From NCBI RefSeq assembly GCF_024732245.1, contig NZ_CP093845.1, positions 2,170,001 through 2,234,000 of the forward strand: a stretch of DNA of 64,000 nucleotides. Reading direction: 5' to 3'. How positions within the stretch are numbered: position 1 is the stretch's first letter; each line of letters opens with the position of its first letter. Source of the DNA: Dietzia sp. B32 (GTDB taxonomy: Bacteria; Actinomycetota; Actinomycetes; Mycobacteriales; Mycobacteriaceae). A program made the position numbers and the translations under genes. Below are positions 692 to 19,050 of the stretch, piece by piece. A model generated the notes under the pieces. The model did not search any database, was not told the DNA's origin, and worked only from the letters and a program-made list of their open reading frames with translations.

Positions 692-1789
692 TCACCCGCC
701 TCCCGTCGCGCGTTCGAAGGCGCCCACGATCCCGAGTGGATCGTTCTGCTCCACGGGGAACATGAGCGGATTGGTCAGTCCGGCCCCCGTACACAACGGC
801 AGCGGTTCGCGGGCGCACAGTTCGCGACCGCGCTCGAAGTGGGTGATGTTCGACGAGATGTTGAGGCGGATCCGCGCCCGACCGTCCGGTCCGATGCTGT
901 CGGCCATGTTGCCCATCATCTGCGGGTACTGGTCGAGGAACTCCGCGAAGTCGGCGCGGTGGCGCGCGTACAGGGCGGTGACATCGCGGGTCGCCCCCGT
1001 CGCGGCCGTGAGGTCCTCGCCGCGGGCGGCCATGATCCCGTCCACCTCGTCGAGGATGACGCGCAGGTCCTCCGCGGGGGCGGCGACGTCGATCTCGTCC
1101 TCCCTGATCTGTCGTCCCAGGTCGTCGAGCCCCAGGACGAGGTCACGCATCTTCTGGTCGCGTCCGCCGGCGGCGTCCATGAGCACGGACAGTTCCGTGA
1201 CGATCGCCCCGAGGTCCTGCGCGCGGTCTCCACCCACCGCGGAGACGGTGGACAGGTCGCGGATGGCGCGGTTCAGCTCCTCCCCGCGGCCGTCGAGCGC
1301 CGCGGCGCCACGGTCGAGGCCCCGGGCCACCTCTTCGGCACCCGGCGCGAACGCCGAGCTCAACGTGTCGACGCCGGCGACGAACTCGTCGAAGTCCAGT
1401 GGCGCCCGGGTCCTGGCAACCGGGATGACGCCGCCGTCCGGGAAGGTGGGCCCGTCGATGTACGCAGGGGTGAGCTCGACGAACCTGTCCGCGATGACGG
1501 CGGGGTTCATCACCACCGCGCCCACGTTCCCGGGCAGTCGGGTCCCGGGATTGAGGGAGAGCCCGACCCGGACGACCGGCCCGAGGGGCTCGACCTCCTC
1601 CACCAGCCCCACCTCGACTCCGACGATCCGCACCTGGGAGCCCACGTAGATCCCGTCCGCGGTCGCGAACTCGGCGGTGATCCGCACGCGGGAATCACCG
1701 CGTCCCCCGACCATCACCACGGCGAGGACGATCGCGGCGACCAGGACGGTGGCGAGAACGATGAGGACACGGGCGCGACTCAACGGCAT
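692..1789 (-). CDS. Mce family protein MceD
   Basis: A 365-residue MlaD-domain protein with an N-terminal membrane anchor (residues about 7-27), then an MlaD fold beginning RITAEFATADGIYVGSQVRI, which carries the VxGVxVG motif typical of Mce proteins. The middle is helical and rich in heptad-like leucines and charged residues, as expected of the Mce needle or barrel. The ATG lies 10 bases inside the end of mceC, indicating translational coupling. It is shorter than mycobacterial Mce1D (over 500 residues), lacking a long proline-rich tail. The letter is given by gene order. Confidence 0.88.
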   Translation of the reverse strand: MPLSRARVLIVLATVLVAAIVLAVVMVGGRGDSRVRITAEFATADGIYVGSQVRIVGVEVGLVEEVEPLGPVVRVGLSLNPGTRLPGNVGAVVMNPAVIADRFVELTPAYIDGPTFPDGGVIPVARTRAPLDFDEFVAGVDTLSSAFAPGAEEVARGLDRGAAALDGRGEELNRAIRDLSTVSAVGGDRAQDLGAIVTELSVLMDAAGGRDQKMRDLVLGLDDLGRQIREDEIDVAAPAEDLRVILDEVDGIMAARGEDLTAATGATRDVTALYARHRADFAEFLDQYPQMMGNMADSIGPDGRARIRLNISSNITHFERGRELCAREPLPLCTGAGLTNPLMFPVEQNDPLGIVGAFERATGGG

Positions 1790-2808
1790 CCGTCCATCAC
1801 CCCCAGGGCACAGAGGGCGGAGTCGGGGATCGGTCCGGTGGGGGTGGCGACGTCGGTCCAGGGCCCGTTGCCGGACGCGTCGCTCACGGCGCGCAGACCC
1901 GGTGGCAGGCGGGTGAGCGCCTCGTCCATCACCTCGATGTTGCGGTGGTAGGTCTCGCTGATCGAACGCATGTTGACCAGGAGACGGTCGACGTCCTCGG
2001 CCTCGGAACCGAGCAGCGAGCGGACGCGGGTCGCCAGGTCCTCGACCGACGCGACCAGAGTCCGCAGGGCCTCCCGGCGCTGCGTCAGCACGGTCACCAG
2101 GACACGGGCCTGATCCGTGAGCGTGCGGATCCCGGCCTCCTGGGTGACGAGGATCCCGGTGATCTCCCGTGTGGTGGTGACGACCTGACTCATCCTGGCG
2201 TCCTCCCGTGCGAGTAGTCCGAGCGCGGCGGAGACGTCGTCGATCGCCCGCCCCGTGGCGTCGGCGTCCTGCGGCAGGACACTGTCGAGGGTGTCGATCA
2301 CCGCGCTCACCGCCTCGGTGTCGAGACCGTCGGCGAGGTCGGTCACGGCCTCACCGACGTCGTCGATCATGTACGGGGAGGTGGTCCGTTCCACCCTGAT
2401 GCGGCGCTGCGGACCGAGGTCTCCGGAACCCGACGGGACGACGTCCAGGAACCGGTTGCCCAGGATCGACTTGAGCCCGACCGTCGCGGTGCTCGACTCC
2501 CCGAGACCCTGGCCCCGGTCCAGGCGGAACCCCACCACGGCCAGGCCGTTCTCGATCGACAGTGAGTCGACCCTGCCGGTCGGGACGCCCGAGACGAGCA
2601 CCGTGTCCCCGGCGCGCAGACCGCCCGCGTTGTGGAACTCCGCCGTGTACGCCTCGGTGCGAAGGACGTACCACAGGCGCGGCAGCGCGACCCCGGCCAC
2701 GAACACCGCCAGCACGAGCAGGATCGACACCGCCCCCACCAGCACCGTGTTCCCCCGGCGGGCGTGCCGCGGGTCCCGGACCAGGTCCGACAGACTCTCG
2801 CGGATCAT
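1780..2808 (-). CDS. Mce family protein MceC
   Basis: A 342-residue MlaD-domain protein. I start it at the ATG at 2808 (MIRESLSDLVRD), which has a G-rich ribosome site just upstream and follows the mceB stop by 11 bases; a longer reading would overlap mceB. A membrane segment (about residues 23-45) precedes the MlaD domain (YTAEFHNAGGLRAGDTVLVS). The C-terminus contains a Cys pair (ALCALGVMDGCR) that could form a disulfide outside the membrane. It belongs to the six-protein Mce assembly fed by YrbEA/B. Confidence 0.87.
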   Translation of the reverse strand: MIRESLSDLVRDPRHARRGNTVLVGAVSILLVLAVFVAGVALPRLWYVLRTEAYTAEFHNAGGLRAGDTVLVSGVPTGRVDSLSIENGLAVVGFRLDRGQGLGESSTATVGLKSILGNRFLDVVPSGSGDLGPQRRIRVERTTSPYMIDDVGEAVTDLADGLDTEAVSAVIDTLDSVLPQDADATGRAIDDVSAALGLLAREDARMSQVVTTTREITGILVTQEAGIRTLTDQARVLVTVLTQRREALRTLVASVEDLATRVRSLLGSEAEDVDRLLVNMRSISETYHRNIEVMDEALTRLPPGLRAVSDASGNGPWTDVATPTGPIPDSALCALGVMDGCR

Positions 2809-2819
2809 CTCCGACCCCC

Positions 2820-3866
2820 TCACCTGCACACCTCCGAGTTCTGGTGTCCGAACGGGTTGGCCTGCATCCCGTCCCACGAGACGGTGAAGTTGCACATGTA
2901 CAGGGACAGGAACCCGCCCTTGCGGGTCAGTGCGTTGACCTCACGGGCGAACCCGGGCACCCGGCCGAGCGTCGACTCGAACTCGTCGGTCCGGGGGACC
3001 CAGCCGTCGGTGGTGTGGCGCGCGGCGTCCACGCTCGTCCGCAGGTCGCGGTCCGTCTCCTCAAGCATCGCCGCCAGGGCCGCCGACGAGGCACCCCCGC
3101 GGTCGATGAGCAGGGCGAGGTCGCGTCCCCCGCCGTCGGCGAGCGCCCCGGAGACCTCGTCGAGCCCCCGGACCAGACGCCGCAGGTCACCCTCCCGACC
3201 GGTGAGGGTATCCCCGAGCGCCTCGACGTTGTCCGCGAGCCGGGTGTAGACGTCCTCGCGGTCGAGGACATCCCGGCTGAGCAGCGCCAACCTCGACAGG
3301 AGGGTGTCCATCGCGCCGGGCTCACCCTGGAACGCGGCGACCACCGTGTGCGAGAGCGCGTTGACCTCCTCCGGCCGGACGGAGTCGAACAGCGGCTTGA
3401 ACCCGTTGACGAGGGCGGTCAGGTCCACCGGTCCCGTGGTGTCCTCCAACGGGATGCGCGAACCCTCGGGCATGTCGACCGCACCACGGACGGCCGGCGC
3501 TCCGCCCGGGGTCGGGTCGAGCGACAGATAACGGATCCCGAGCATGTCCCCGTACCGCACCGACGCACGGGCGCCCGCGGTGACGGGGTTGTCCTGCTCG
3601 ACCTCGAAGTGCACCACGGCGGTGACCTCACCGCCCGCACGGATCTCCCGGTCCACCCCGAGCACCCGTCCGACCCGGACGCCGGCGACGGTGACCTCGG
3701 ATCCGGGCCCGAGCCCACCCACGTCGTCGAACTCGGCGCTGTACCCGCGGGCACCGAACCCCACCGGTACGCGCAGCGTGTTGATCACCAACACCGTGCA
3801 CAGGACCCCGAGCAGGCAGAAGACGAAGAGCTGCACCGCTGGCGCGAGACCCGGACGACCGGTCAT
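2820..3866 (-). CDS. Mce family protein MceB
   Basis: A 348-residue MlaD-domain protein. The ATG at 3866 overlaps the mceA stop in an ATGA arrangement, so I prefer it to the ATG 48 bases upstream. Order: membrane segment (about residues 11-32), MlaD domain (YSAEFDDVGGLGPGSEVTVA, then VRVGRVLGV), an alpha-helical region, and a short C-terminal part with Cys residues (YMCNF, SEVCR). The motif RYGDMLGIRYLSL matches the MceB pattern of a conserved GxRYxxL stretch after the beta-barrel. Confidence 0.88.
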   Translation of the reverse strand: MTGRPGLAPAVQLFVFCLLGVLCTVLVINTLRVPVGFGARGYSAEFDDVGGLGPGSEVTVAGVRVGRVLGVDREIRAGGEVTAVVHFEVEQDNPVTAGARASVRYGDMLGIRYLSLDPTPGGAPAVRGAVDMPEGSRIPLEDTTGPVDLTALVNGFKPLFDSVRPEEVNALSHTVVAAFQGEPGAMDTLLSRLALLSRDVLDREDVYTRLADNVEALGDTLTGREGDLRRLVRGLDEVSGALADGGGRDLALLIDRGGASSAALAAMLEETDRDLRTSVDAARHTTDGWVPRTDEFESTLGRVPGFAREVNALTRKGGFLSLYMCNFTVSWDGMQANPFGHQNSEVCR

Positions 3867-5143
3867 CGGATCGCCACCTCGTTCCCACGCACGAGCGGGC
3901 CGAGCATCGTCCACGCGGCCGCGTCGGGACCCGCATCGTGGACCCCGGGCGGCGGGACCGGTGACCCGGGCTCGCCCGCGGCCGCTGCCTGGAGCTCCCG
4001 GATGACGTCCCGTTCCGACGCGGCGTTCACCGTCAGCCCGGGCCCGGTGTCCGGGGCGGGCTCGCCCGTGCAGGTCGAGCCCGCCAGGTCCGGGTACCGC
4101 GGGCAGTCCTGCGGCCCGTAGGGCATCGGGTCGGCGAACGACGGGACCGCGGTGATATCGAACCGGCCCGTCGAGAACGCCGCCGCGCCCGCCTCGCCCA
4201 TGGGGCGCATCGCGTACAGGGTCCTGATGACCCCGTGTGGATTGCGGGCCGTCCGGTCGAAGACGACCCCGGTGTCGTGGACCAACCTGATCGCGCCCGG
4301 CACCGTCCGGTCGGCGAGGACCGCGCCCGAGGCCCCGGCGCCCAGACCCGCGTCGAGGAGGCGGCCCAGGGAACCCGGGCGGTCGAGGACGATCCCGGAC
4401 AGCCGGGTGGCCTCCTCCATCGTCGCGAGGATCGCCGGGCTCGCCGAGGCCAGGTCCTCGGCGAGGGCGGCCACTCCCGGGGAGGCGTCGAGCGCGTCGC
4501 CGAGCGCCGGGTTGAGCTGGGCGGTCGCCAGGTCGGCGTCGTCGATCACGCGGCCCAGGGTCTCCCCGCGGCCGTCGAGTGCGCGGGACAGTGCGGTGAG
4601 GGCCACCTGCATCCGCTGCGGCTCGATGGACACCAACAGATCGCTGGCCCGGGTGAACACGTCGTAGAGCTGCACCGCCTCGTCCGACCGGTCGGCGGGC
4701 AGCTCGTCGCCGTCCGTGAGCGTCCGTGCCCGGTCGGCAACGGGCCCCGCCGGACCGGTTCCGCCGGCCGGGACCAGGTCCAGCCGGACATCACCGAACA
4801 GCGTGCGCGGGACCACCCGCACGACCACGTCCCCCGGGATGTGGTCGGCGTACTCGGAGTCGATCAACATCTCCACGCGGGTGCCGGGCTCGTCGTCGTC
4901 GCCGACCGCGCCCGCCGACCCGCGCACGTCACCGACCTTCACTCCCAGGTGGTGGACCGGTGCGTTCTCCGGGATCCGTCCCGCCGCGGCCGGCAGTGCG
5001 GAGGTCACCGTGGCCCCGGCGTCGAACACGCCGGCCCCGCGGCCCACCAGCAGCACCCCGATCGTCACCGCCACGACGGTCGCGACCACGCCGCGCAGGA
5101 TCAGGGTCCGCTCGGGCGCCGGGCGCGCCACCCGGCGCCTCAT
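3863..5143 (-). CDS. Mce family protein MceA
   Basis: A 426-residue protein, first and longest Mce subunit of the cluster. The ATG at 5143 overlaps the yrbEB stop (ATGA); an earlier in-frame ATG would lie inside yrbEB. It has a membrane anchor (about residues 13-34), an MlaD domain with the GVKVGDVRG motif, a long helical region, and a C-terminal domain with two Cys (PQDCPRYPDLAGSTC), as in mycobacterial MceA proteins. It should sit in the cell envelope as part of the hexamer that moves a hydrophobic substrate to the YrbE permease. The substrate cannot be read from sequence. Confidence 0.9.
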   Translation of the reverse strand: MRRRVARPAPERTLILRGVVATVVAVTIGVLLVGRGAGVFDAGATVTSALPAAAGRIPENAPVHHLGVKVGDVRGSAGAVGDDDEPGTRVEMLIDSEYADHIPGDVVVRVVPRTLFGDVRLDLVPAGGTGPAGPVADRARTLTDGDELPADRSDEAVQLYDVFTRASDLLVSIEPQRMQVALTALSRALDGRGETLGRVIDDADLATAQLNPALGDALDASPGVAALAEDLASASPAILATMEEATRLSGIVLDRPGSLGRLLDAGLGAGASGAVLADRTVPGAIRLVHDTGVVFDRTARNPHGVIRTLYAMRPMGEAGAAAFSTGRFDITAVPSFADPMPYGPQDCPRYPDLAGSTCTGEPAPDTGPGLTVNAASERDVIRELQAAAAGEPGSPVPPPGVHDAGPDAAAWTMLGPLVRGNEVAIR

Positions 5144-6021
5144 GTGATCCCCAGGGCGGGGACCTCGGGCACGAGACCCCACAGGGCGAACGTGAGCACG
5201 ATGTCGAGGAAGCCGATCGCGAGGATGCTGGTGCGCAACGCACGACCCGCCGCACGGCCGACCCCCTCGGGCCCGCCGGTGGCATGATAGCCGTAACTGC
5301 AGTGCACGAGCACGATCACGAGGGCGAACACGACGGCCTTGATCAGCGAGTACAGCACGTCCTCGGGACCGAGGGTGATGTGGAAGAAGTGGTCGTAGGT
5401 CCCGGCCGACCCGCCGTTGACGTACACCACCACGAACCGGGTGGCGATGTAGGTGGCGACCAACCCGATCGCGTAGAGCGGGACGATGCAGATCATCGTG
5501 GCCACCAGGCGGGTGCCCGCCAGATACGGCACTGTCGGCACGGACATGGCGTCGAGCGCGTCGATCTCGTCGGAGATGCGCATCGACCCGAGCCTGGCGG
5601 TGAACCCGGTGCCGACCTTGGCGGCCAGGGCCACGGATGCCACCACCGGCGCGAGCTCACGGGTGTTGGCCATGGCCGAGAGCATCCCGGACAGGGTCGT
5701 CATCCCGATGAGGTCGAGGCCGCGGTAGGTCTCGACCCCGACCATGATGGCCGCCACGGCGGACATCGCCAGGACGATGCCCACCGTGCCCCCGCCGGCG
5801 ACCAGCGACTTGGACCCGAAGCCCACGTCGACGACCTCGCGGAGCACCTGTCCCCGGTAGCGGACCACGGCGGTCGGGAGCGAGACCAGGACCCTGCCGG
5901 CGAAGGTCACGTGCCTGCCGACCTCGGCCATCGCCGTGCCCAGTGCGTTGACGCGGCCCGCGGTCCGCGTGGCGCGGGCGCGCTGCCACGCGGTGGTCTC
6001 CGCGACCCGGAAGCCCCCCAC
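5140..6021 (-). CDS. YrbE/MlaE-type ABC permease, B subunit
   Basis: A 293-residue integral membrane permease of the MlaE family that pairs with YrbEA in Mce transporters. Five to six membrane segments are visible, with the family core from about residue 73 (SLVAGGGTVGIVL) through NTRELAPVVASVALAAKVGTG and the EIDAL motif (DEIDALDAMSVPTVPY). It begins with GTG one base after the yrbEA stop, so it is co-translated. No ATPase is encoded nearby; Mce systems usually use a separately encoded MceG ATPase. Confidence 0.92.
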   Translation of the reverse strand: MGGFRVAETTAWQRARATRTAGRVNALGTAMAEVGRHVTFAGRVLVSLPTAVVRYRGQVLREVVDVGFGSKSLVAGGGTVGIVLAMSAVAAIMVGVETYRGLDLIGMTTLSGMLSAMANTRELAPVVASVALAAKVGTGFTARLGSMRISDEIDALDAMSVPTVPYLAGTRLVATMICIVPLYAIGLVATYIATRFVVVYVNGGSAGTYDHFFHITLGPEDVLYSLIKAVVFALVIVLVHCSYGYHATGGPEGVGRAAGRALRTSILAIGFLDIVLTFALWGLVPEVPALGIT

Positions 6022-6022
6022 C

Positions 6023-6832
6023 TCAGTACTTCCCCACCGACGGCACGGCCAGCCCGTAGACCGCGGACAGGACCGTGTTGACCACGAAGACGGTGACGAA
6101 CGCCAGGACGACGGTCTCGTTCACCGCGTCCGCGACACCGGAGGAGCCGCCGTCGGCGTGCAGACCCTTGAACGTCGCGATGAGCGCGGAGACGATCGCG
6201 AAGGCGATCGACTTGACCATGGCCATCCACAGGTCGGACGGACGGCCGTACGCGCTCAGGGTCGACAGGAACGCGCCGGCGGACTCCCCCTGCCCGTAGA
6301 CCTGGTAGAGCAGGCAGGCCACCACGCCCATGGCGGTGACCAGCGCGCACATCACCACCGAGACGAGCACGGTGGCGATCACGCGGGGCACGACCAGACG
6401 TTCCACCACGTCGAGGCCCATGACCTCCATCGCCTCGACCTCCTCGCGGATCGTCCGCGAGCCGAGATCCGCGCAGATGGCCGAGCCCCCGACCCCGGCG
6501 AGCATGAGCGCACACACCAGGGCCGAGGCCTGTCCCACCACCACGAAGGCCACCACCGCACCCGCGTACCCGGCCGCGCCCAGCCGGCCGGCGAGCTCCC
6601 CCACCGAGACCGCGACGAGCACGCCGACCGGGAGCATGAGCAGCAGTGCGGGCACCGAGCTCACACGCGCGATGAACAGCGCCTGGTCACGGGTCTCGGC
6701 GAGCGCCAACCGGCCGCGGGCCACGGTGCTCACGCACCGCAGCAGGGTGAAGACCGAGAACCCGACGAGCGAGCCGACCTGGCCGGCGAGATCGACGACC
6801 GGGCCGCGGCCGGTGGGGAGGTGGAAGACCAT
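6023..6832 (-). CDS. YrbE/MlaE-type ABC permease, A subunit
   Basis: A 269-residue MlaE-family permease. Family signatures are VGGSAICADLGSRTIREEVEAMEVMGLD at about residues 119-146 and several long hydrophobic spans. The ATG at 6832 is 10 bases downstream of the fadD stop. It forms a heterodimeric channel with YrbEB and receives lipid from the Mce proteins encoded just downstream. Its placement after beta-oxidation genes suggests that the imported lipid is catabolised. Confidence 0.92.
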   Translation of the reverse strand: MVFHLPTGRGPVVDLAGQVGSLVGFSVFTLLRCVSTVARGRLALAETRDQALFIARVSSVPALLLMLPVGVLVAVSVGELAGRLGAAGYAGAVVAFVVVGQASALVCALMLAGVGGSAICADLGSRTIREEVEAMEVMGLDVVERLVVPRVIATVLVSVVMCALVTAMGVVACLLYQVYGQGESAGAFLSTLSAYGRPSDLWMAMVKSIAFAIVSALIATFKGLHADGGSSGVADAVNETVVLAFVTVFVVNTVLSAVYGLAVPSVGKY

Positions 6833-6842
6833 GGCGCTCGGG

Positions 6843-8435
6843 TCAGACGCCCATGGTGCCGTGCTCGGAGCGCAGCGTGCCCTTGACGACCTTGCCGCTG
6901 GCGTTGCGCGGGAGCTCGTCGACGTGGACCAGGTGCTTGGGGAGCTTGAAGCCGGCGAGCTTGTCCCGCAGCCACTCGGTCAGCTCCTCGAGGGTGAGAT
7001 CGGTGCCGCCGTCCTCCACGTTCTGGGCGACCACCGCGACGGGGACCTCGCCCCACTTGTCGTCCTTGCGGCCGATCACCGCGACCTCGCGGATCCGCGG
7101 GTGTCCGGCGATGATGTTCTCCACCTCGGCGCAGTAGATGTTCTCGCCGCCGGAGATGATCATGTCCTTCTTGCGGTCCACGACGTAGACGAAGCCCTCG
7201 TCGTCCATCCGGACCAGGTCGCCGGAGTGGAACCAGCCGCCCTCGAACGCCTCCGCGGTCTCCTCGGGCTTGTTCCAGTAGCCGGACATGGTGGTGGGGC
7301 CGCGGTAGACGATCTCGCCGACCTCACCCGGGCCGACGGGCTCCCCGAATGCGTCGACGACGCGGGCCTGGAGGGTGGGGATGACCTTGCCGACGGACCC
7401 GAGCTTGCGGATCGCGTCGTCGCCGTCGAGGGCGCAGGTGATCGGGCTCATCTCGGTCTGGCCGAACACGGCGCAGTTCAGGGCGTCCGGGAAGGTCTCG
7501 GCCATGGCGCGCAGGATCGTGTCGGTGGACGGGGCCGCGCCCCAGGAGATGTTGCGCAGCACCAGGCTGCGTGGGCGGGCCTGCTGCTCGGCGCAGACGG
7601 CCTGCCACTGCACGGGCACGAGGAAGATGCTGGTGATCCGTTCGGCCTCGAGCGTGTCCAGGACCGCCGTGGGGTCGAAGGCCTGCAGCGGGTGGACCAC
7701 CGTGACGCCACCGAGCTGGAGACTCGGCGCGATCGATCCCAGCGCCGCGATGTGGAACATCGGGGCGGCGCACAACGCGCGGCCCTCCTCGTCGAACAGA
7801 CGGAAGACGCGGATGCAGGTCAGCGACTGCGCGGTGAGGTTCTCATACGAGAGCATCGCGCCCTTGGGACGACCGGTGGTGCCCGAGGTGTACATGATGA
7901 GCGCGGTGGAGTCCTCGGGGACGTCGACCGGCTCGTGCGGCTGGCCCTCCTCCGCGATCGCGTCGGCGTACGTGGTCTGCTCGGGCGTCCCCGACTCACC
8001 CCCGATCACGATGTGATGGCCCGGCTCCTCGCCCTGCGCGCGGATCGCACCGACGAGCGGGGCGAGCATGGCGTCGGTGATGACGACCTTCGGCGCGGAG
8101 TCGCCGACCAGGTAGGCGAGCTCACCCGGGGTGAGCCGGAAGTTCACCGGTACCGCGATCGCGCCCAGCTCGTTGATGCCCAGCACGGCCTCGACGAACT
8201 CAGGGTTGTTGAGCGTGATGAGCATGACCCGGTCGCCCTTGCCCACCCCACGGCGGGCCAATGCGTCGGCGAAGCGGTTGCTGCGCTCGTGCAGTTGGCT
8301 CCACGTGGTGGCCTGTCCGAGGTAGCGCAGCGCCTCCGCGTCGGGTTGCATCTCGGCGTGGGTGGCGACCCACGTGTTCCAGTTGTTGCGGCGTGCCGCG
8401 TGGAGCTCGGCGATGGGATCCGTGGCGGTGGTCAT
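6843..8435 (-). CDS. Acyl-CoA synthetase (AMP-forming), FadD5-like
   Basis: A 530-residue ANL-superfamily ligase that activates a carboxylic acid to its CoA thioester via an acyl-adenylate. The P-loop MYTSGTTGRPKG is at 181-192, the AMP-binding GQTEMSP motif is present, the hinge region reads HSGDLVRMDDEGFVYVVDRK, and the C-terminal catalytic lysine region is PRNASGKVVKGTLR. The ATG at 8435 has an AAAGG ribosome site. It lies directly upstream of yrbEA, as fadD5 does in the mycobacterial mce1 operon. Activation of the imported lipid is the likely role; chain length or steroid side-chain specificity is unknown. Confidence 0.93.
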   Translation of the reverse strand: MTTATDPIAELHAARRNNWNTWVATHAEMQPDAEALRYLGQATTWSQLHERSNRFADALARRGVGKGDRVMLITLNNPEFVEAVLGINELGAIAVPVNFRLTPGELAYLVGDSAPKVVITDAMLAPLVGAIRAQGEEPGHHIVIGGESGTPEQTTYADAIAEEGQPHEPVDVPEDSTALIMYTSGTTGRPKGAMLSYENLTAQSLTCIRVFRLFDEEGRALCAAPMFHIAALGSIAPSLQLGGVTVVHPLQAFDPTAVLDTLEAERITSIFLVPVQWQAVCAEQQARPRSLVLRNISWGAAPSTDTILRAMAETFPDALNCAVFGQTEMSPITCALDGDDAIRKLGSVGKVIPTLQARVVDAFGEPVGPGEVGEIVYRGPTTMSGYWNKPEETAEAFEGGWFHSGDLVRMDDEGFVYVVDRKKDMIISGGENIYCAEVENIIAGHPRIREVAVIGRKDDKWGEVPVAVVAQNVEDGGTDLTLEELTEWLRDKLAGFKLPKHLVHVDELPRNASGKVVKGTLRSEHGTMGV

Positions 8436-8491
8436 GATCTCGGCCTTTCGTGGCGGTGGGTGACGGGAGGGGCAGGTGACAGAGGGACGGT

Positions 8492-12476
<3,985 letters not shown>

Positions 12477-12520: not shown

Positions 12521-13738
12521 TTACAGGCGTTCGATGATCGTGGCGATACCCATCCCGGCACCCACGCAGAGAGTGGCCAGGGCGTAGCGGGCGTCGCGGC
12601 GTTCCAACTCGTCCAGGGCGGTGCCGAGGATCATCGCGCCGGTGGCGCCGAGGGGGTGGCCCATGGCGATCGCGCCGCCGTTGACGTTGATCTTGTCCAT
12701 CGGGACGTCGAGGTCCTTGGCGAACTTCATGGGCACGGCGGCGAACGCCTCGTTGACCTCGAACAGGTCGATGTCGTCGACCGTCAGTCCCGCCTTGGCC
12801 AGCGCCTTGCGCGCGGCGGGCGTGGGGCCGGTGAGCATGATCGTGGGTTCGGATCCGACCACCGCGGCGGAGACGATCCGGGCGCGCGGCGTCAGGCCGC
12901 CCCGCTCGCCCGCCTCGGCGTTGCCGATGAGCAGGGCGGTGGCGCCGTCGACGATGCCGGAGGAGTTGCCGGCGTGGTGGACGTGGTCGATCCTCTCCAC
13001 CCAGTGGTACTTCTGCAGCGCGACGGCGTCGAACCCGGCCTGCTCGCCGAGGGCGGCGAAGGAGGGCTTCAGGGCGGCGAGGTCATCGGCGGTGGTGCCG
13101 CGGCGAATGTGCTCGTCGTGGTCGAGGACGACCTGCCCCGCCAGGTCGACCACCGGGACGACCGACCGGGAGAACCGGCCGTCCTCCCACGCGGCCGATG
13201 CCAGTTCCTGGGAACGCTGCGCGAACTCGTCGACGTCCCGGCGGGAGAAGCCCTCGAGGGTGGCGATGAGGTCGGCGCCGATGCCCTGGGGGACGAAGGA
13301 GGTCTCGTAGTTGACCCGGGGGTTCTGCGCCCACGCCCCGCCGTCGGAGCCCATCGGCACCCGGGACATCGACTCCACGCCGCCGGCGATCACGAGGTCC
13401 TCCCAACCGGCGCGGACCTTCTGCGCGGCCAGGTTGACCGCCTCCAGGCCCGAGGCGCAGAAGCGGTTCTCCTGCACCCCGGCCACCGTCTCCGGCAGGC
13501 CCGCCGCGATCGCGGCGATCCGCGGCAGCACCGCGCCCTGCTCGCCGACGGGGCCGACGATGCCCATGACCACGTCCTCGATCTGCGCGGGGTCGAGGTC
13601 GGCGTTCCGCTCGACGAGCGACCGCAGTACGCCGACGGCGAGGTCGATCGGGGCGACGCTGTAGAGCGAACCGCTGGACTTTCCCCGTCCGCGTGGCGTA
13701 CGCACCGCGTCGTAGATGTAGGCCTCGGGCACTGACAT
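12521..13738 (-). CDS. fadA: Acetyl-CoA acyltransferase (thiolase, FadA)
   Basis: A 405-residue thiolase that cleaves 3-ketoacyl-CoA in the last step of beta-oxidation. The nucleophilic cysteine is Cys94 in [13 protein letters not shown]; the C-terminal catalytic motifs are [15 protein letters not shown] and LCVGAGMG. I take the ATG at 13738 ([15 protein letters not shown]), which matches thiolase N-termini; the upstream in-frame extension would cover the promoter region. It is the first gene of the long minus-strand operon and partner of FadB. Expression is likely controlled from the intergenic region shared with the tandem-TetR gene. Confidence 0.95.
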
Positions 13739-13901
13739 GGGTGGGTGATCCCTTCCGCGTTCGACCACGTTCCGCGCCGTCGACGTGACGCGTCTCGTGG
13801 ATCCGATCACATATATCTGTGAATTCGGGTTTACTATGGCCACTGTAACCGGTGTTGTCAAGATCACACCTTGTTCCGCCGAACCCGGAAGCCGAGACCA
13901 C
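13739..13901. promoter_or_regulatory. Divergent promoter region, fadA operon / tandem-TetR gene
   Basis: A 163-base intergenic region between diverging genes. It is conspicuously AT-rich in the middle, unlike the rest of the window, and holds the two sequence blocks listed separately at 13802-13819 and 13838-13847. These are the likely operator of the adjacent tandem-TetR regulator. Promoter hexamers cannot be assigned with certainty. Confidence 0.7.
13802..13819. promoter_or_regulatory. Operator-like motif, copy 1 (TCCGATCACATATATCTG)
   Basis: This 18-mer recurs with one mismatch at 17788-17805, in front of the aldehyde dehydrogenase and fadE genes. In this copy it extends into a near-palindrome, TCACATATATCTGTGA at 13807-13822 (14 of 16 positions symmetric). 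A second shared block, GGCCACTGTA, lies at 13838-13847, starting 36 bases downstream of this motif's start; the corresponding distance in copy 2 is 38. It differs from KstR and KstR2 consensus boxes. Inference: binding site of the product of 13902-15170. Confidence 0.65.
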
Positions 13902-15170
13902 GTGACCCCCACCCACGCGCAGGCCGCGCGCCCCCTCCAGGCCCCGCCGCCGGGGTCCCGACGTGCAGAGATAGCGCTGGTGGCGGGCGAGGAGTTCACC
14001 CGGCGCGGCTACCACTCCACGCGCGTGGAGCACATCGCCGATCGGCTGGAGGTGACGCCCGGGGCGCTGTACCGGCACGTGCCCGGCAAGTACGAGATGT
14101 TCCGGGACGCCGTCGCGATCCTCATCTCAGAGCTCGAGTCCGCCACCGGAGGCGCGCCCGTCACGGGTGGCGATCGGACGGACGTCGACGAGGAGGACGC
14201 ACTGCGGCACGTGGTGGAGTCGGTCACGCTGACCACGCTCACCCACCGTTCACGGGCGTCGCTGTACCGCTGGCAACTGCGGTACCTCAGCCCGGAGGAC
14301 CGCGCCGCGGTGGTCGCCGCCGACGCCCGCGTGCGCGGCCGGGTCGCCGACGCCGTCCGGGGACGACGACGAGGAGGACCCACGGCGGGCGCGGGTTCGG
14401 CGGCCGGGGCGATCCTGTCGTGCATCGCCTCGCTGGGGCACCACCGGATCGAGATCACCGGGCCCGACGCCGTGACGCTGATGACCTCGATCGCCGACGA
14501 CCTCGCGCTGTGCATTCCGCAGCGACGCCGGCAACCCGACACTGCGGCGAGGACAGGACCCCCCGGTGCGGCACCGGGGTCGATCCGGCTGCGGGGCGGC
14601 GCCGCGACCCGGGAGGGCGCCATCAGCGCCGCCATCGAGCTCTTCCATTCCACCGGGTACGACGGGGTGACGATGGAGGCGATCGGCGCGGATGTGGGGG
14701 TTGCCGCGTCGGCGCTGTACCGGCACTTTCCGGGCAAGGCCGCTCTGCTCACCGCGGCGGTGGACAGGACAGCCGGGCTGGTCGGGGACCTCCTGGACCG
14801 GCACGCCGCCTGGCACGGCGCGGGCACGGATCCGGCCGGGTCCCTGGTCGACCTGCTGGACCAGTACATCGGCATCGCGTTCTCCCACGGCCCCGAACTG
14901 ATGCTGTACCACTCCGAACTGGGCAGTCTGGCCACCGAGGACCGGCGCCGGATCCAGCGGGCCCAGCGCGCCCAGCTCGACCGGTGGGCGAACCTGGTGA
15001 ACGAGGCCTCCCGCGCGCACGGGGGAACCCCGCCGGACGAGGTGACCGCCCGGCTCCGGGTGCACGCCGCGCTGTCGGTGGTCCTCGACGGCGGCTGGGG
15101 GACGGGCTTCGACCCGGCTGCGACCGCCAGGCTCGGCGAGTTGGCCCGGACACTGCTGCTCCCCCGCTGA
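13902..15170 (+). CDS. Tandem TetR regulator with two DNA-binding domains (Mce3R-like)
   Basis: A 422-residue protein with two complete TetR_N helix-turn-helix domains in one chain: the first at about residues 19-75 ([20 protein letters not shown]), the second at about 237-292 ([19 protein letters not shown]). Each is followed by a ligand-binding-like helical domain. The architecture matches mycobacterial Mce3R, a roughly 400-residue repressor of mce3 and of lipid-metabolism genes. It diverges from the fadA-mce operon, as Mce3R does from its target. The GTG at 13902 is preferred because it has GGAAG upstream; an in-frame ATG at 13836 lies within the operator region. Confidence 0.88.
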
Positions 15171-15185
15171 GCCGGCCGCGGCGGG

Positions 15186-16268
15186 TCAGGCGGCTCCGGT
15201 GGCCCCGGCTGCCGGGGCGTGCGCGACCGGGCAGGCGCCCTTCCGGTCCCGCGGCTGGATCGGGCAGGCCCCCAGATCCGCCGGACGGTAGCCCTCCGGG
15301 TACCCGGGGTACGTCCGGTTCTCGGTCGCACGGGCCCCGAGCTCCCGGCGACGGACGGGCAGCCAGCGCACCACCCTGGACCGCATCCGCAGTGCCGCGT
15401 AGGCGGCGTCCCGGAACGCCGGCGGCTGCCACGGGAAGCCGAAGGCGCGGGTCATGTCGTCGTCGATCAGCGACCGCACGACCTTGCGGACCACCGGCCG
15501 GACCGGCGCGGGATACCAGGAACACATCAGGTCGAGCGTGTACGTGCCGATCAGCTCGTTGTTCCGGTCGTAGCGCATGGTGCGGGCCTCGTAGTCGTCC
15601 CGCCAGCGCCGGAACTCCCCGATGTCCTCCGGGATCCCCGAGATCTTCATCCGTTCCCCGACGGCGCGGTAGAAGTGGAACGCCGCGAGTCGCTCGTTCG
15701 GATGCAGACGCCGCCAGCCGTTCGCATCGATCCACTCGAGCGGCTCGTAGATGAACGTCGACAGCACGTACAGCATGTCGTCATTGGTGATCTCGTACAT
15801 CGCGTGCTGACGGTTGATGACCCGCAGCGCCTCCTTGCCGCGGGGCGAGTCGTACCCGTGCTCCACCAGCTCCACCATGAGCAGCGCGGTGTCGTCGTAC
15901 CGCTTCTGCGGGTGGTCGCGGAAATTCCCCGCCTGCTCCAGGACCGCCGACACCGACGGGATGCAGTAGGTCCGGTACAGCGCCAGCTCGAGCGCCCGCT
16001 GGTAGTCCCAGGGGAACTCGTACGTCGAGGTGATGCGGTGGATCTCCTCCGCATCCGACACCGGGTCCAGAGTGTCGATGAGGTCGCGCCAGTACCAACG
16101 ACCGGGCCTGAGCGGGACCCCCGCCGTGAGCGGGTGCTCGACGGCGGAGTCGGTGACGAGGTCGGCCGGGACGGGTCCGAACACCCCGGGTACGGCGGGC
16201 CGGTCGGTGACCGTGGACCTCGTCGTCGTCGTCTTCTCCGGGGTTCTCTCAGCGGAGGTGGCGGTCAT
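15186..16268 (-). CDS. DUF2236 / oxygenase MpaB-family protein
   Basis: A 360-residue protein of the DUF2236 (MpaB, latex-clearing-protein-like) family, whose studied members are heme-dependent oxygenases. Family features are the N-terminal segment with GRWYWRDLIDT, and a central helical core carrying conserved His and Arg residues (RVINRQHAMYEITNDDMLYVLSTFIYEP at about 150-177) where heme coordination occurs in relatives. The C-terminus ends in a basic, Cys-containing tail (GACPIQPRDRKGACPV). The start is six bases after the ALDH stop, so the two are co-transcribed. A role in oxidising the same hydrophobic substrate is inferred. Confidence 0.8.
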   Translation of the reverse strand: MTATSAERTPEKTTTTRSTVTDRPAVPGVFGPVPADLVTDSAVEHPLTAGVPLRPGRWYWRDLIDTLDPVSDAEEIHRITSTYEFPWDYQRALELALYRTYCIPSVSAVLEQAGNFRDHPQKRYDDTALLMVELVEHGYDSPRGKEALRVINRQHAMYEITNDDMLYVLSTFIYEPLEWIDANGWRRLHPNERLAAFHFYRAVGERMKISGIPEDIGEFRRWRDDYEARTMRYDRNNELIGTYTLDLMCSWYPAPVRPVVRKVVRSLIDDDMTRAFGFPWQPPAFRDAAYAALRMRSRVVRWLPVRRRELGARATENRTYPGYPEGYRPADLGACPIQPRDRKGACPVAHAPAAGATGAA

Positions 16269-16274
16269 CCCACA

Positions 16275-17771
16275 TCACATCTTTCCCTGGACGTTGGCGA
16301 GCATCCACTTGACGATCTTGATGTCGCGCGGCTTGCGGGTCATGGTCATGAGGTTGAGCGGGGCCGCGAACTTCTGCGCGGTGATGGCCTTGGGGCGGGC
16401 GAACTCACGCAGCCCGTCGGCGCCGTGGATGCGGCCGAAGCCCGAGTCACCCGAGCCGCCGAACGGCAGGGACGGGATGCCGGCAAAGGCGAGGAACGAG
16501 TTGATGGACACCATGCCCACGTCGAGCTTCTCCGCCAGGGCCAGTCCCCGCTTCTTGTTGCCCGTGAAGATCGAGCCGCCGAGCCCGTAGCGGCTGGCGT
16601 TGGCCTTCTCGACGGCCTCCTCCAGGTCCGCGACCCGGTTGATCACCACGGTCGGGCCGAAGGTCTCCTCGGTGACCGCGGAGGAGTCCTCGGGGACGTC
16701 CACCAGGACGATCGGCTCGACGATCTTCTCACCGACGGACTCCTCACCGCCGAGGACGGCCTTGCCACCCTTGGCGAGTGCGTCCTTGACGTGCCTGCGG
16801 ACGATGTCGACCTGCGCCGGCAACGTCATCGGGCCGTAGCTGGAGGAGGTCGAATTCCCCGGGGTCAGCGCACGGACTTTGGCCGTGAACTTCTGGACGA
16901 ACGCGTCGTGGACATCGGAGTGGACGTAGATCCGCTCGACACCCGCGCAGGTCTGGCCCGCGTTGCCCATGGCACCGAAGACCGCCTGGTCGGCGGCCGC
17001 GTCGAGGTCCGCGTCCGAGTCGACGAGCAGGGCGTCCTTGCCGCCGCCCTCGATGACGACCGGCGTGAGCGTCTCCGCGCAGGCGGCCATGACCTTGCGG
17101 CCCGTCGCCGCGGAACCGGTGAACGCGAGCTTGTCCACGCCGGCCCTGCACAGGGCGTTACCGGTGGAACCGTCCCCGGTGATGGTCTGGATGAGCGGCT
17201 GGGAGGCACCGAGCGAGTCCCACACCTCGGCCAGCCAGACGCCGACACCCGGGGTGAGCTCGCTGGGCTTGAACACGACCGCGTTGCCGGCGGCCATGGC
17301 ATACGACAAAGTGCCCATCGGGGTGAAGACCGGGTAGTTCCACGGGCCGATCGCGCCGACCACACCGTAGGGCTGGTACTCGACGTACGCCGCCTGGTTG
17401 CTCATGAGCAGCCCCGCCGAGACGGGGCGGCGACGTAGGACCTTGTCCGCGTTCTTGGCCGCCCACTCCAGATGGCTCACGGCGAGCATGACCTCGAGCG
17501 TCGCGTCCTCGTCCGGCTTACCGGTCTCGGCGGAGATCAGCGACGCGAGCTCCTGGGCCCTCGACGAGATCGCCCGCTTGTACTCCAGCAGCCACTCGCG
17601 GCGGCCCCGCGGACCCTGCTTGGCCCACCAGCGGGCGGCGGCGCGCGCACGCTCCACGGCTAGGGCGACCTCCTCCGGCCCGGCGATCGGGTACTCGGCG
17701 AGGACGGTGCCGTCGCGGGGGTCCACGCTCGCGAACGTGGGTCCGGTCTTGCTGGGCTCGGTGGTCGTCAT
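16275..17771 (-). CDS. NAD(P)-dependent aldehyde dehydrogenase
   Basis: A 498-residue class 3/fatty-aldehyde-type ALDH that oxidises an aldehyde to an acid. Motifs seen are IGPWNYPVFTPMG (cofactor site), FTGSAATGRKV, the glutamate region VIEGGGKDA and the catalytic Cys275 in NAGQTCAGVERIYV; the C-terminal PSLPFGGSGDSGFGR is typical. The C-terminal 40 residues are hydrophobic-basic (LNLMTMTRKPRDIKIVKWM), which may give membrane association as in fatty aldehyde dehydrogenases. It lies first in a two-gene unit with the DUF2236 gene, behind operator copy 2. Confidence 0.93.
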   Translation of the reverse strand: MTTTEPSKTGPTFASVDPRDGTVLAEYPIAGPEEVALAVERARAAARWWAKQGPRGRREWLLEYKRAISSRAQELASLISAETGKPDEDATLEVMLAVSHLEWAAKNADKVLRRRPVSAGLLMSNQAAYVEYQPYGVVGAIGPWNYPVFTPMGTLSYAMAAGNAVVFKPSELTPGVGVWLAEVWDSLGASQPLIQTITGDGSTGNALCRAGVDKLAFTGSAATGRKVMAACAETLTPVVIEGGGKDALLVDSDADLDAAADQAVFGAMGNAGQTCAGVERIYVHSDVHDAFVQKFTAKVRALTPGNSTSSSYGPMTLPAQVDIVRRHVKDALAKGGKAVLGGEESVGEKIVEPIVLVDVPEDSSAVTEETFGPTVVINRVADLEEAVEKANASRYGLGGSIFTGNKKRGLALAEKLDVGMVSINSFLAFAGIPSLPFGGSGDSGFGRIHGADGLREFARPKAITAQKFAAPLNLMTMTRKPRDIKIVKWMLANVQGKM

Positions 17772-17787
17772 CTGAGGTCCTCTCGTT

Positions 17788-17805
17788 TCCGATCACATAT
17801 ATTTG
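17788..17805. promoter_or_regulatory. Operator-like motif, copy 2 (TCCGATCACATATATTTG)
   Basis: It matches 13802-13819 at 17 of 18 positions and sits between the diverging ALDH and fadE genes. The second shared block, GGCCACAGTA, is at 17826-17835 (9 of 10 identical to 13838-13847), starting 38 bases after this motif's start versus 36 in copy 1. The right half is less palindromic here. Inference: the tandem-TetR protein controls both divergent promoters. Confidence 0.65.
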
Positions 17806-17907
17806 ATGTAGCGTACCGTGATACGGGCCACAGTAGTCCAGTGTGCACGCAACCGACACCCCGTGACCGATACCGGGACAACCACCCACAGAAAACCGAG
17901 GCGAGAA

Positions 17908-19050
17908 GTGTTCGACATCCTCACCGAAGAGCAGCGTGACTTCGCCCGATCGATCGATGATTTCTGCGCGCGCGAGGTCGGCAGCGTCGAGAAGCGGCGC
18001 GAGCTCACCACCGAGGGCGGCACCCACTCGCCGCACATCTACGCCAAGATGGCCGAGCTCGGGTGGCTGGGACTCACCGTCCCCGAGGAGTACGGCGGCT
18101 CCGACGCCGGCGCCGTCGAACTGTGCCTCCTCCTCGAGCACTCCCTGCGCGGTCTGACCCCCATCGGAGGCATCGGCCCCACCCTCATCACGGCCGCCGC
18201 GTACCAGAAGTTCGGGACCGAGGAGCAGCGCAGGCGCGCCCTCGAGCTGGTCGTGAACGGCGGCACCCTGTCCATCTCGATGTCCGAGCCGGGTGCCGGG
18301 TCCGACGTCGCCGCCCTGCGCTGCAAGGCCGAGCGCGACGGCGACGACTGGGTGATCAACGGCCAGAAGACCTGGTGCTCCAACGCGCACTTCGCCGACC
18401 GCATCCTGCTCGTGGCCCGCACCGACTCGTCGGGCAAGAAACACGAGGGCATCACGATGTTCGACGTGCCCGCCGACATCGCGGGCCTGCAGATCACCGG
18501 GATCGAGACCATGGGCGGCAAAGAGGTCAACGACCTCTACTTCACCGACGTCCGCCTGCCCGCCGACTCCGTGATCGGCGAGGTCGGCGGCGGGTGGAAG
18601 CAGCTCATGACCGGCCTCAACACGGAGCGCCTCATCCTCGCCGCCATGCAACTCGGCGTGGCCCAGCGGGCGTTCGACGACTGCCTGACCTTCATCAAGG
18701 AGCGCGAGCAGTTCGGCCGGCCCGTCGGGTCCTTCCAGGTGCTGCGCCACCGGATGGCCGACCTCGCCACCGAGATCGAGGCCACGCGGCTGCTCGTCTA
18801 CGCGGTGGCCAGGAAGGTCGACGACGCCGACCCCACGGCTCTGTTCCCCCGCGAGGCGTCCATGGCCAAGCTCAAGGCCTCCGAGCTGAGCAAGCGCGTG
18901 ACCCTGGAGTGCATGCAGTCCATGGGCGGGTACGGATACGCCACCGAGTACGGCATGGAGCGCCTGGTGCGCCAGGCGGTGGTCTCCACCATCTACGGCG
19001 GCACCAACGAGGTGCAGCGCGACATCATCGGCAAGACGCTCGGACTGTGA
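17908..19050 (+). CDS. Acyl-CoA dehydrogenase (FadE-type)
   Basis: A 380-residue FAD enzyme catalysing the first dehydrogenation of beta-oxidation. Signatures are MSEPGAGSDVAALRCKAERDGD, WVINGQKTWCSNA, FTDVRLPADSVIG, EREQFGRPVGSFQ and the C-terminal MQSMGGYGYATEY...IYGGTNEVQRDIIGKTLGL. I start at the GTG at 17908, preceded by GAGGCGAG, giving the normal family length; an earlier ATG would run through the shared operator. The usual catalytic-glutamate position near the C-terminus is occupied by YGG, so the base must lie elsewhere, as in several FadE subfamilies. It supplies the step missing from the fadA-fadB operon. Confidence 0.93.
   Translation: MFDILTEEQRDFARSIDDFCAREVGSVEKRRELTTEGGTHSPHIYAKMAELGWLGLTVPEEYGGSDAGAVELCLLLEHSLRGLTPIGGIGPTLITAAAYQKFGTEEQRRRALELVVNGGTLSISMSEPGAGSDVAALRCKAERDGDDWVINGQKTWCSNAHFADRILLVARTDSSGKKHEGITMFDVPADIAGLQITGIETMGGKEVNDLYFTDVRLPADSVIGEVGGGWKQLMTGLNTERLILAAMQLGVAQRAFDDCLTFIKEREQFGRPVGSFQVLRHRMADLATEIEATRLLVYAVARKVDDADPTALFPREASMAKLKASELSKRVTLECMQSMGGYGYATEYGMERLVRQAVVSTIYGGTNEVQRDIIGKTLGL

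Follow-up and report, generated by a model that had tools for sequence, protein, structure and literature searches.

In Dietzia sp. B32 we find a short AT-rich DNA dyad at the head of four sets of lipid genes, two of them in the window analysed here (64,000 nucleotides, positions 2,170,001 to 2,234,000 of contig NZ_CP093845.1). One arm of this dyad, called block 1, is shared by the divergent intergenic regions between fadA and a gene for a tandem-TetR regulator, and between the genes for an aldehyde dehydrogenase (ALDH) and the acyl-CoA dehydrogenase FadE. Direct computation shows the element and its four copies, how far it is conserved, and that it is linked to a nearby regulator gene. That regulator, Q, belongs to the GntR/FCD type. 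Judged from the sequences, block 1 is probably a dyad operator read by dimeric Q, acting as the repressor of a single lipid regulon. Lipid regulators that bind palindromes are already known; the motif found here is unusual.

The shared element occurs at four loci

Block 1 lies at 13802-13819, between fadA on the minus strand and the tandem-TetR gene on the plus strand, and again at 17788-17805. The two copies are identical at 17 of 18 bases, which bears out the match described in an earlier note on this DNA, and they are the only matches to the 18-mer in the window with up to three mismatches, compared with 0.01 expected (100 shuffles). Site 1 as a whole spans 13802..13821, with the core GATCACATATAT at 13805-13816 and a weak right arm. 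Site 2 spans 17788..17808, contains the dyad ATCACATATATTTGAT at 17792-17807, and is located 19 bp upstream of the ALDH start.

The earlier note held that the shared sequences occur only in these two regions, and for block 1 this is wrong. The exact 14-mer core CCGATCACATATAT is present in four copies in the single-contig 3.73-Mb genome, where dinucleotide composition predicts about 0.001, and the two extra copies (L006:10172 and L007:10198) lie 20 and 17 bp upstream of genes of the MPAB_Lcp_cat family, which is MpaB/rubber-oxygenase-like. We call these genes MPABb and MPABc. Searching the whole genome with the left core plus the right arm, GATCACATATATNTGAT, and up to three mismatches gives six matches, all at the same four loci; the reversed control gives none. 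A match with two mismatches at genome position 2697541 falls among genes of transposase type and was set aside.

A second sequence, block 2 (GGCCAC(T/A)GTA), is found on the plus strand at 13838-13847 and 17826-17835, at the offsets of 36 and 38 bases previously described. The two blocks had been proposed to form an asymmetric two-block operator that could be sought across the genome. When they are scanned separately the block 1 core is found at four loci, and block 2 is missing at two of these, with no copy within 76 bases to the right of the core at either extra site. Taken alone, block 2 occurs five times in the window with up to one mismatch, compared with 3.7 expected, and is thus not beyond chance. 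Genome-wide there are five exact copies, against 24 of the reversed pattern; the three outside sites 1 and 2 are all inside predicted open reading frames. With block 2 missing at two of the four sites and at chance level alone, the single operator of two blocks was rejected; block 1 instead forms one arm of a dyad with imperfect symmetry. Block 2 looks like promoter-side sequence, outside the operator. At site 1 it is part of the spacer of the promoter-like fadA sequence described below, and a block 2-like CACAnTA is also seen by eye in the ALDH/FadE regions of other genera, with a tandem TetR nearby or not.

Structure and distribution of the dyad

The family-wide form of the dyad is ATCAMATATATKTGAT. 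It is present in 83 of 201 family genomes, with no reversed control among the matches listed. The 12-mer core occurs in all 16 sampled Dietzia genomes and in 10 of 185 others of the family. In Dietzia the operator consists of GATCACATATAT and a right arm, TGATG, which some sites match less well. Its left arm does not vary, and its right arm is less strictly kept at site 1 and MPABb, in sets that were collected with a left-arm pattern. At MPABc the dyad is ATCACATATATGTGAT. Because the core pattern was used to collect the 14 Dietzia site-1 sequences, the identity of their cores is partly a product of selection; a separate search that found the site 1 region in Dietzia allowed up to two mismatches. 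The pattern used for collecting Dietzia sites missed site 2 of G007. A second GATCACA occurs at window position 13862, 57 bp after the site 1 core, and in 13 of the 14 Dietzia site-1 sequences.

Comparing 72 distinct copies of the dyad (21 from Dietzia and 51 others), we find that the symmetry extends outward toward TCACATCA...TGATGTGA, reaching 28 bp in genera other than Dietzia. The two positions at the center combine freely, with CT in 23, CG in 20, AG in 17 and AT in 12 copies. This free combination, with no covariation between the arms, fits DNA half-sites rather than an RNA stem, and an RNA hairpin was rejected for this reason.

The position of the element is consistent with an operator. 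A good sigma-A-type promoter-like sequence, TTGACA-17-CATAGT, directed toward fadA lies at 13833..13861 on the minus strand, with 10 of 12 matches compared with a mean of 0.0 in 50 shuffles, and this would place block 1 at about +7 to +24 of the expected fadA start. In the remaining three units the core precedes the start codon by 17-20 bp, in one orientation. Such placement fits a repressor, and from it we infer repression. The same spacing and orientation at three start codons, together with the AT-rich composition, might also be expected if block 1 were a core-promoter or RNA element and not a regulator site. Yet there are only four copies in 3.7 Mb, limited to one functional gene set, and the extended symmetry and the lack of covariation at the center are not those of such an element, so that we regard this explanation as quite improbable.

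Outside Dietzia we analysed 46 distinct dyads in 91 loci, after dropping the duplicates L165 and L168. The set is not neutral: 73 loci were picked for a tandem-TetR homologue, 14 for having none known nearby, and four on the basis of the 12-mer or dyad. None was picked by means of Q. All 46 dyads lie before ALDH and/or FadE, 27 of them between ALDH and FadE, 11 before FadE, seven between ALDH and Q, and one before ALDH. Among the ten non-Dietzia 12-mer matches, three (in G193, G127 and G046) lie in 20-kb stretches that contain no homologue of the tandem TetR, MPAB, FadE or mce. An isolated GATCACATATAT at L117:9586 lies upstream of two yrbE-type homologues in G140, a genome lacking the full dyad, with no tandem TetR in 20 kb. 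The genome G080 carries two dyad loci (L285:9908 and L123:9995), each with its own tandem-TetR homologue, and with Q at one only.

A text search of one open-access library found the 16-mer spellings of the dyad in no paper and the 12-mers only in unrelated papers, and listings from one such library held no title or abstract start on this operator or regulon.

A GntR/FCD regulator is linked to the dyad

The gene for Q lies at genome positions 2166203-2166913, about 3 kb to the left of the window, in tail-to-tail orientation to the final gene of the presumed fadA-mce operon. The GntR winged helix-turn-helix (HTH) domain PF00392 and the FCD domain PF07729 both score above cut-off in the Dietzia protein and in two from Rhodococcus. 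Q is found in 20 of the 20 Dietzia genomes in which the region is covered, including six that lack the tandem TetR (G002, G004, G006, G010, G017 and G022); outside this count are G012, whose contig starts inside the mce genes, G008 and G021. Sequence identity is 56-87% across 15 Dietzia genomes.

In other genera, GntR/FCD genes lie beside dyads that have no tandem TetR close by. A transcription unit containing Q begins at the dyad and points away from it, within 1.6 kb, at 40 of the 46 non-Dietzia sites. Q is 1.1-1.4 kb from the dyad in 33 of these, with FadE in between in the loci mapped, and follows the dyad directly at 119-241 bp in the other seven. Six sites have no Q unit at the dyad, including four whose loci end 0.5-1.3 kb beyond it (L170, L171, L173 and L199). 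The HTH of Q is nearly identical between Dietzia and the other genera (19 sequences).

The nearest solved relative of Q by sequence is AlkR (9ISW). In the aligned helix Q has Val where AlkR has Arg and McbR has Ile, and we take the AlkR Arg to read the GT of its operator box.

Several observations weigh against Q as the reader. The dyad core ATCAMATATATKTGAT lacks the canonical GT..AC boxes (NyGTNxACNy) expected for the FadR/VanR branch; it does have the palindromic form of operator expected for that branch, and is assigned to Q by linkage alone. The replacement of Arg by Val might explain the missing boxes, through a plausible change of code. Passages of PMC4494728 describe these boxes as typical of most FadR-subfamily sites, with exceptions that include BioR and NanR. 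In the B32 genome there is no dyad upstream of Q (up to three mismatches), and Q is 17 kb from site 1. Q is 6.2 kb away and in two pieces at L273 (G131), and at L123 there is none within 10 kb, with a tandem TetR 2.5 kb away. A 12-mer site in Hoyosella (L116) immediately adjoins a tandem-TetR gene, at the gene's 3′ end, and has no Q in 20 kb. Comparison of the HTH regions of Q and the tandem TetR discriminates weakly, because GntR helices are generally alike. The linkage could in part reflect operon conservation, as Q, FadE and ALDH are syntenic; the seven loci in which Q directly faces ALDH speak against synteny with FadE as the cause. Lastly, the identity of block 2 at site 2 falls from 94% in genomes with the tandem TetR to 76-77% in those without. 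Block 2 may matter to the tandem TetR at site 2, or this may be the result of sampling.

The tandem-TetR regulator is probably not the main reader

The regulator beside site 1, RegM, is encoded at 13902..15170 on the plus strand, from a GTG start chosen from conservation, 81 bp from the site. As the earlier note recognized, it has two TetR domains like Mce3R. There are two TetR_N stretches (PF00440), and the nearest solved relative by both sequence (E-value 7e-17) and fold is Mce3R; the predicted structure (predicted local distance difference test 88, predicted template modeling score 0.87) has its best match in 9b7y, with template modeling scores of 0.76/0.83.

RegM had been proposed as the reader of the element, and was initially our favored sole reader given the presence of homologues near dyads in several genera. 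The case for it weakened once dyads were found to be kept without it, and it was dropped in that role when GntR/FCD genes were found beside dyads lying far from any tandem TetR. RegM is the regulator gene next to site 1, and a tandem-TetR homologue is found within 10 kb of 35 of the 46 non-Dietzia dyads, but 73 of the 91 loci had been picked by such a homologue. The best cases for it are Hoyosella and L123, where the homologue is near and Q is not, and block 2 is looser where its gene is missing. Outside Dietzia, the homologues from loci that contain a dyad share one type of recognition helix; so do a number of those for which the fetched stretch has none.

Against this stands the persistence of the dyad in genomes without a double TetR. 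A clear RegM homologue is found in 13 of 23 Dietzia genomes, two of these being contig-end fragments. Only single TetRs, and no double TetR, were detected in G002, G004, G006, G008, G010, G017 and G022 (profile search, E ≤ 1e-8). G008 is 83% complete, yet its contig spans the locus with no tandem-TetR gene. Three further genomes with no tandem TetR, G011 and G019 (cut at the locus) and G021 (64% complete), were left out of the conservation comparison. All seven genomes retain site 2. Pairwise identity of its 17-bp core is 96.6% among these seven compared with 98.8% among ten with the tandem TetR, and reaches 98% once the distant G022 is excluded, while the sequence beyond block 2 has identities of 48% and 56%, respectively. 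G115 and G131 also have no double TetR (E ≤ 1e-20) and keep the dyad. In none of the 46 cases outside Dietzia does a tandem-TetR gene start in the 700 bp downstream of the dyad, and Dietzia and the other genera have the same core but different recognition helices (81 proteins, of which one, L186, was dropped as a wrong-frame extraction). The absence of block 2 from two of the four sites speaks against a tandem TetR reading both blocks. Because seven Dietzia genomes without RegM keep the dyad, RegM is probably not its main reader, and Q tracks the dyad better. We thus think it unlikely that RegM reads block 1, either alone or with block 2.

Tandem-TetR homologues are also encoded at loci L176-L237 of Mycolicibacterium and Mycobacterium; their recognition helices are of other types, and the stretches fetched contain no dyad. 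Four of the Dietzia genomes with no tandem TetR (G004, G002, G010 and G017) are without fadA and fadB at the locus as well (read from L061, L066, L068, L070, L064 and L132). The two losses are not tied everywhere, in that G022 keeps both genes despite having no tandem TetR, and G007 carries the regulator but neither gene.

A third factor might read the dyad, such as the BkaR-type single TetR encoded at G000:C1:998142, which resembles the C-terminal half of the tandem TetR and is found in most genomes without the latter. Its closest solved sequence covers 4g12 (titled Fad35R) and 6yj2 (titled Rv2506, BkaR), and BkaR is reported to be tied to branched-chain keto-acid metabolism. However, this protein was not detected in G006 or G019, where the sites persist, and no dyad is found near its gene in the B32 genome. 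We give very little weight to a reader of this kind.

Genes of the putative regulon

The fadA gene (thiolase, 12521..13738, minus strand) is the first of the presumed fadA-mce operon. It is followed on the same strand by fadB (10266..12476), a gene for a nitronate monooxygenase-family flavoprotein (9280..10509), echA (enoyl-CoA hydratase, 8492..9283), a FadD5-type acyl-CoA ligase gene (6843..8570; NF005857 above its cut-off), and two MlaE/YrbE permease genes with four MlaD/Mce genes (692..6832). The true start of the flavoprotein gene is probably further downstream, because the open reading frame overlaps fadB by 244 bp; this gene, placed within the β-oxidation chain, is also seen in relatives. 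Beyond the edge of the window the minus-strand run continues through two more Mce genes and one further gene to an MPAB gene that ends the chain (L284:6917-7771, genome 2166917-2167771), successive genes overlapping or being separated by no more than 44 bp. We infer that the chain from fadA to MPAB is one operon.

The second unit comprises ALDH (16275..17771) and the downstream MPAB_Lcp_cat oxygenase gene MPABa (15186..16268), both on the minus strand; FadE lies divergently at 17908..19050 on the plus strand. PF09995 (MPAB_Lcp_cat) is above cut-off in the target MPAB genes. Of the nine such genes in the genome, four belong to operator-bearing units or presumed units. The matches to MPABc in G009 (L074:6281-7129) and G010 (L067:3991-4697) have an internal stop or are in two pieces, with the operator core unchanged.

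The regulon suggested in the earlier note stands to the extent that a shared, conserved operator-like element links the two regions, and with them Mce import, acyl activation, aldehyde oxidation and β-oxidation. The set of genes is larger than was proposed. The hunch that the regions are linked was correct; the reader and the architecture of the operator were probably wrong.

A proposed model for the regulation of lipid cleavage

In the model we propose, Q would occupy the head of each of four units (fadA-mce, ALDH-MPABa, MPABb and MPABc), 17-66 bp ahead of the start codon, and would repress them until released by an acyl-CoA or a related lipid intermediate. The products would import lipid (Mce) and cleave it oxidatively (the four MPAB oxygenases). 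The resulting aldehyde would be oxidized by ALDH, and the acid activated by FadD5 and passed through β-oxidation by FadE, EchA, FadB and FadA. The families involved suggest that this combination of MPAB, ALDH, acyl-CoA ligase, β-oxidation and Mce proteins serves to break down, by oxidative cleavage, an unsaturated or isoprenoid lipid that has been imported. The tandem TetR is probably a target of Q, because it adjoins site 1, and is perhaps a second regulator with another site.

A wider proposal is more tentative, and we offer it as a possibility that is rather less likely to be right than wrong. Q would have left the GT..AC code to read a new AT-rich dyad, and in Rhodococcus, Prescottella, Williamsia and Dietzia would govern an unrecognized route in which isoprenoid or unsaturated lipids imported by Mce systems undergo MpaB-type cleavage, oxidation to acids and β-oxidation. 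The tandem TetR would be a dispensable second regulator under Q.

Many Mce loci, and the bacterial MpaB-like oxygenases, have to our knowledge no known substrate. Finding a conserved operator that would place the two under a single switch, and naming a candidate for its regulator, opens the pathway and its inducer to direct tests in harmless actinobacteria. It also corrects a tempting misassignment, in that a regulator gene adjoining an operator need not encode its reader.

Comparison with known systems

As described in passages of PMC11667970, Mce3R of Mycobacterium tuberculosis (PDB 9B7Y) places both HTHs in one 25-bp nonpalindromic site. RegM resembles it as a single-chain double TetR beside lipid and mce genes. 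Because Mce3R puts both HTHs into one such site, blocks 36-38 bp apart are unlike an operator of the Mce3R type. The shared element here differs further in being a dyad that persists without RegM and is better tied to Q.

The gene for another M. tuberculosis regulator, Mce1R (Rv0165c), presumably neighbors fadD5. Mce1R is a FadR-type GntR repressor of mce1, according to passages of PMC2277422. Q is similar in being of the GntR type and in its linkage to a presumed operon of fadD5, yrbE and mce genes. The dyad and the arm made up of ALDH, MPAB and FadE belong to the Q system and do not appear in the passages on Mce1R (PMC2277422).

A parallel for the chemistry is found in mycophenolic acid synthesis, where MpaB′ makes an intermediate that is then ligated to CoA and β-oxidized (passages of PMC12591190). 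MpaB′ is an oxygenase that gives its name to the MPAB_Lcp_cat family, and the passage of its product to acyl-CoA ligation and β-oxidation is analogous to what we propose here. It is fungal and biosynthetic, whereas the present genes are bacterial.

The closest comparison for Q is with AlkR of Pseudomonas aeruginosa, a GntR/VanR protein with an FCD domain that passages of PMC12042122 describe as a palindrome-binding repressor released by C16/C18-CoA. Q likewise combines GntR and FCD domains, would bind a palindromic operator (by linkage), and would control lipid or hydrocarbon oxidation. In the same passages the AlkR motif ATTGTCAGACAAT has GT..AC boxes, of which the present dyad has none, and the target of AlkR is alkB2, whereas the presumed targets of Q are the MPAB, ALDH and Mce genes.

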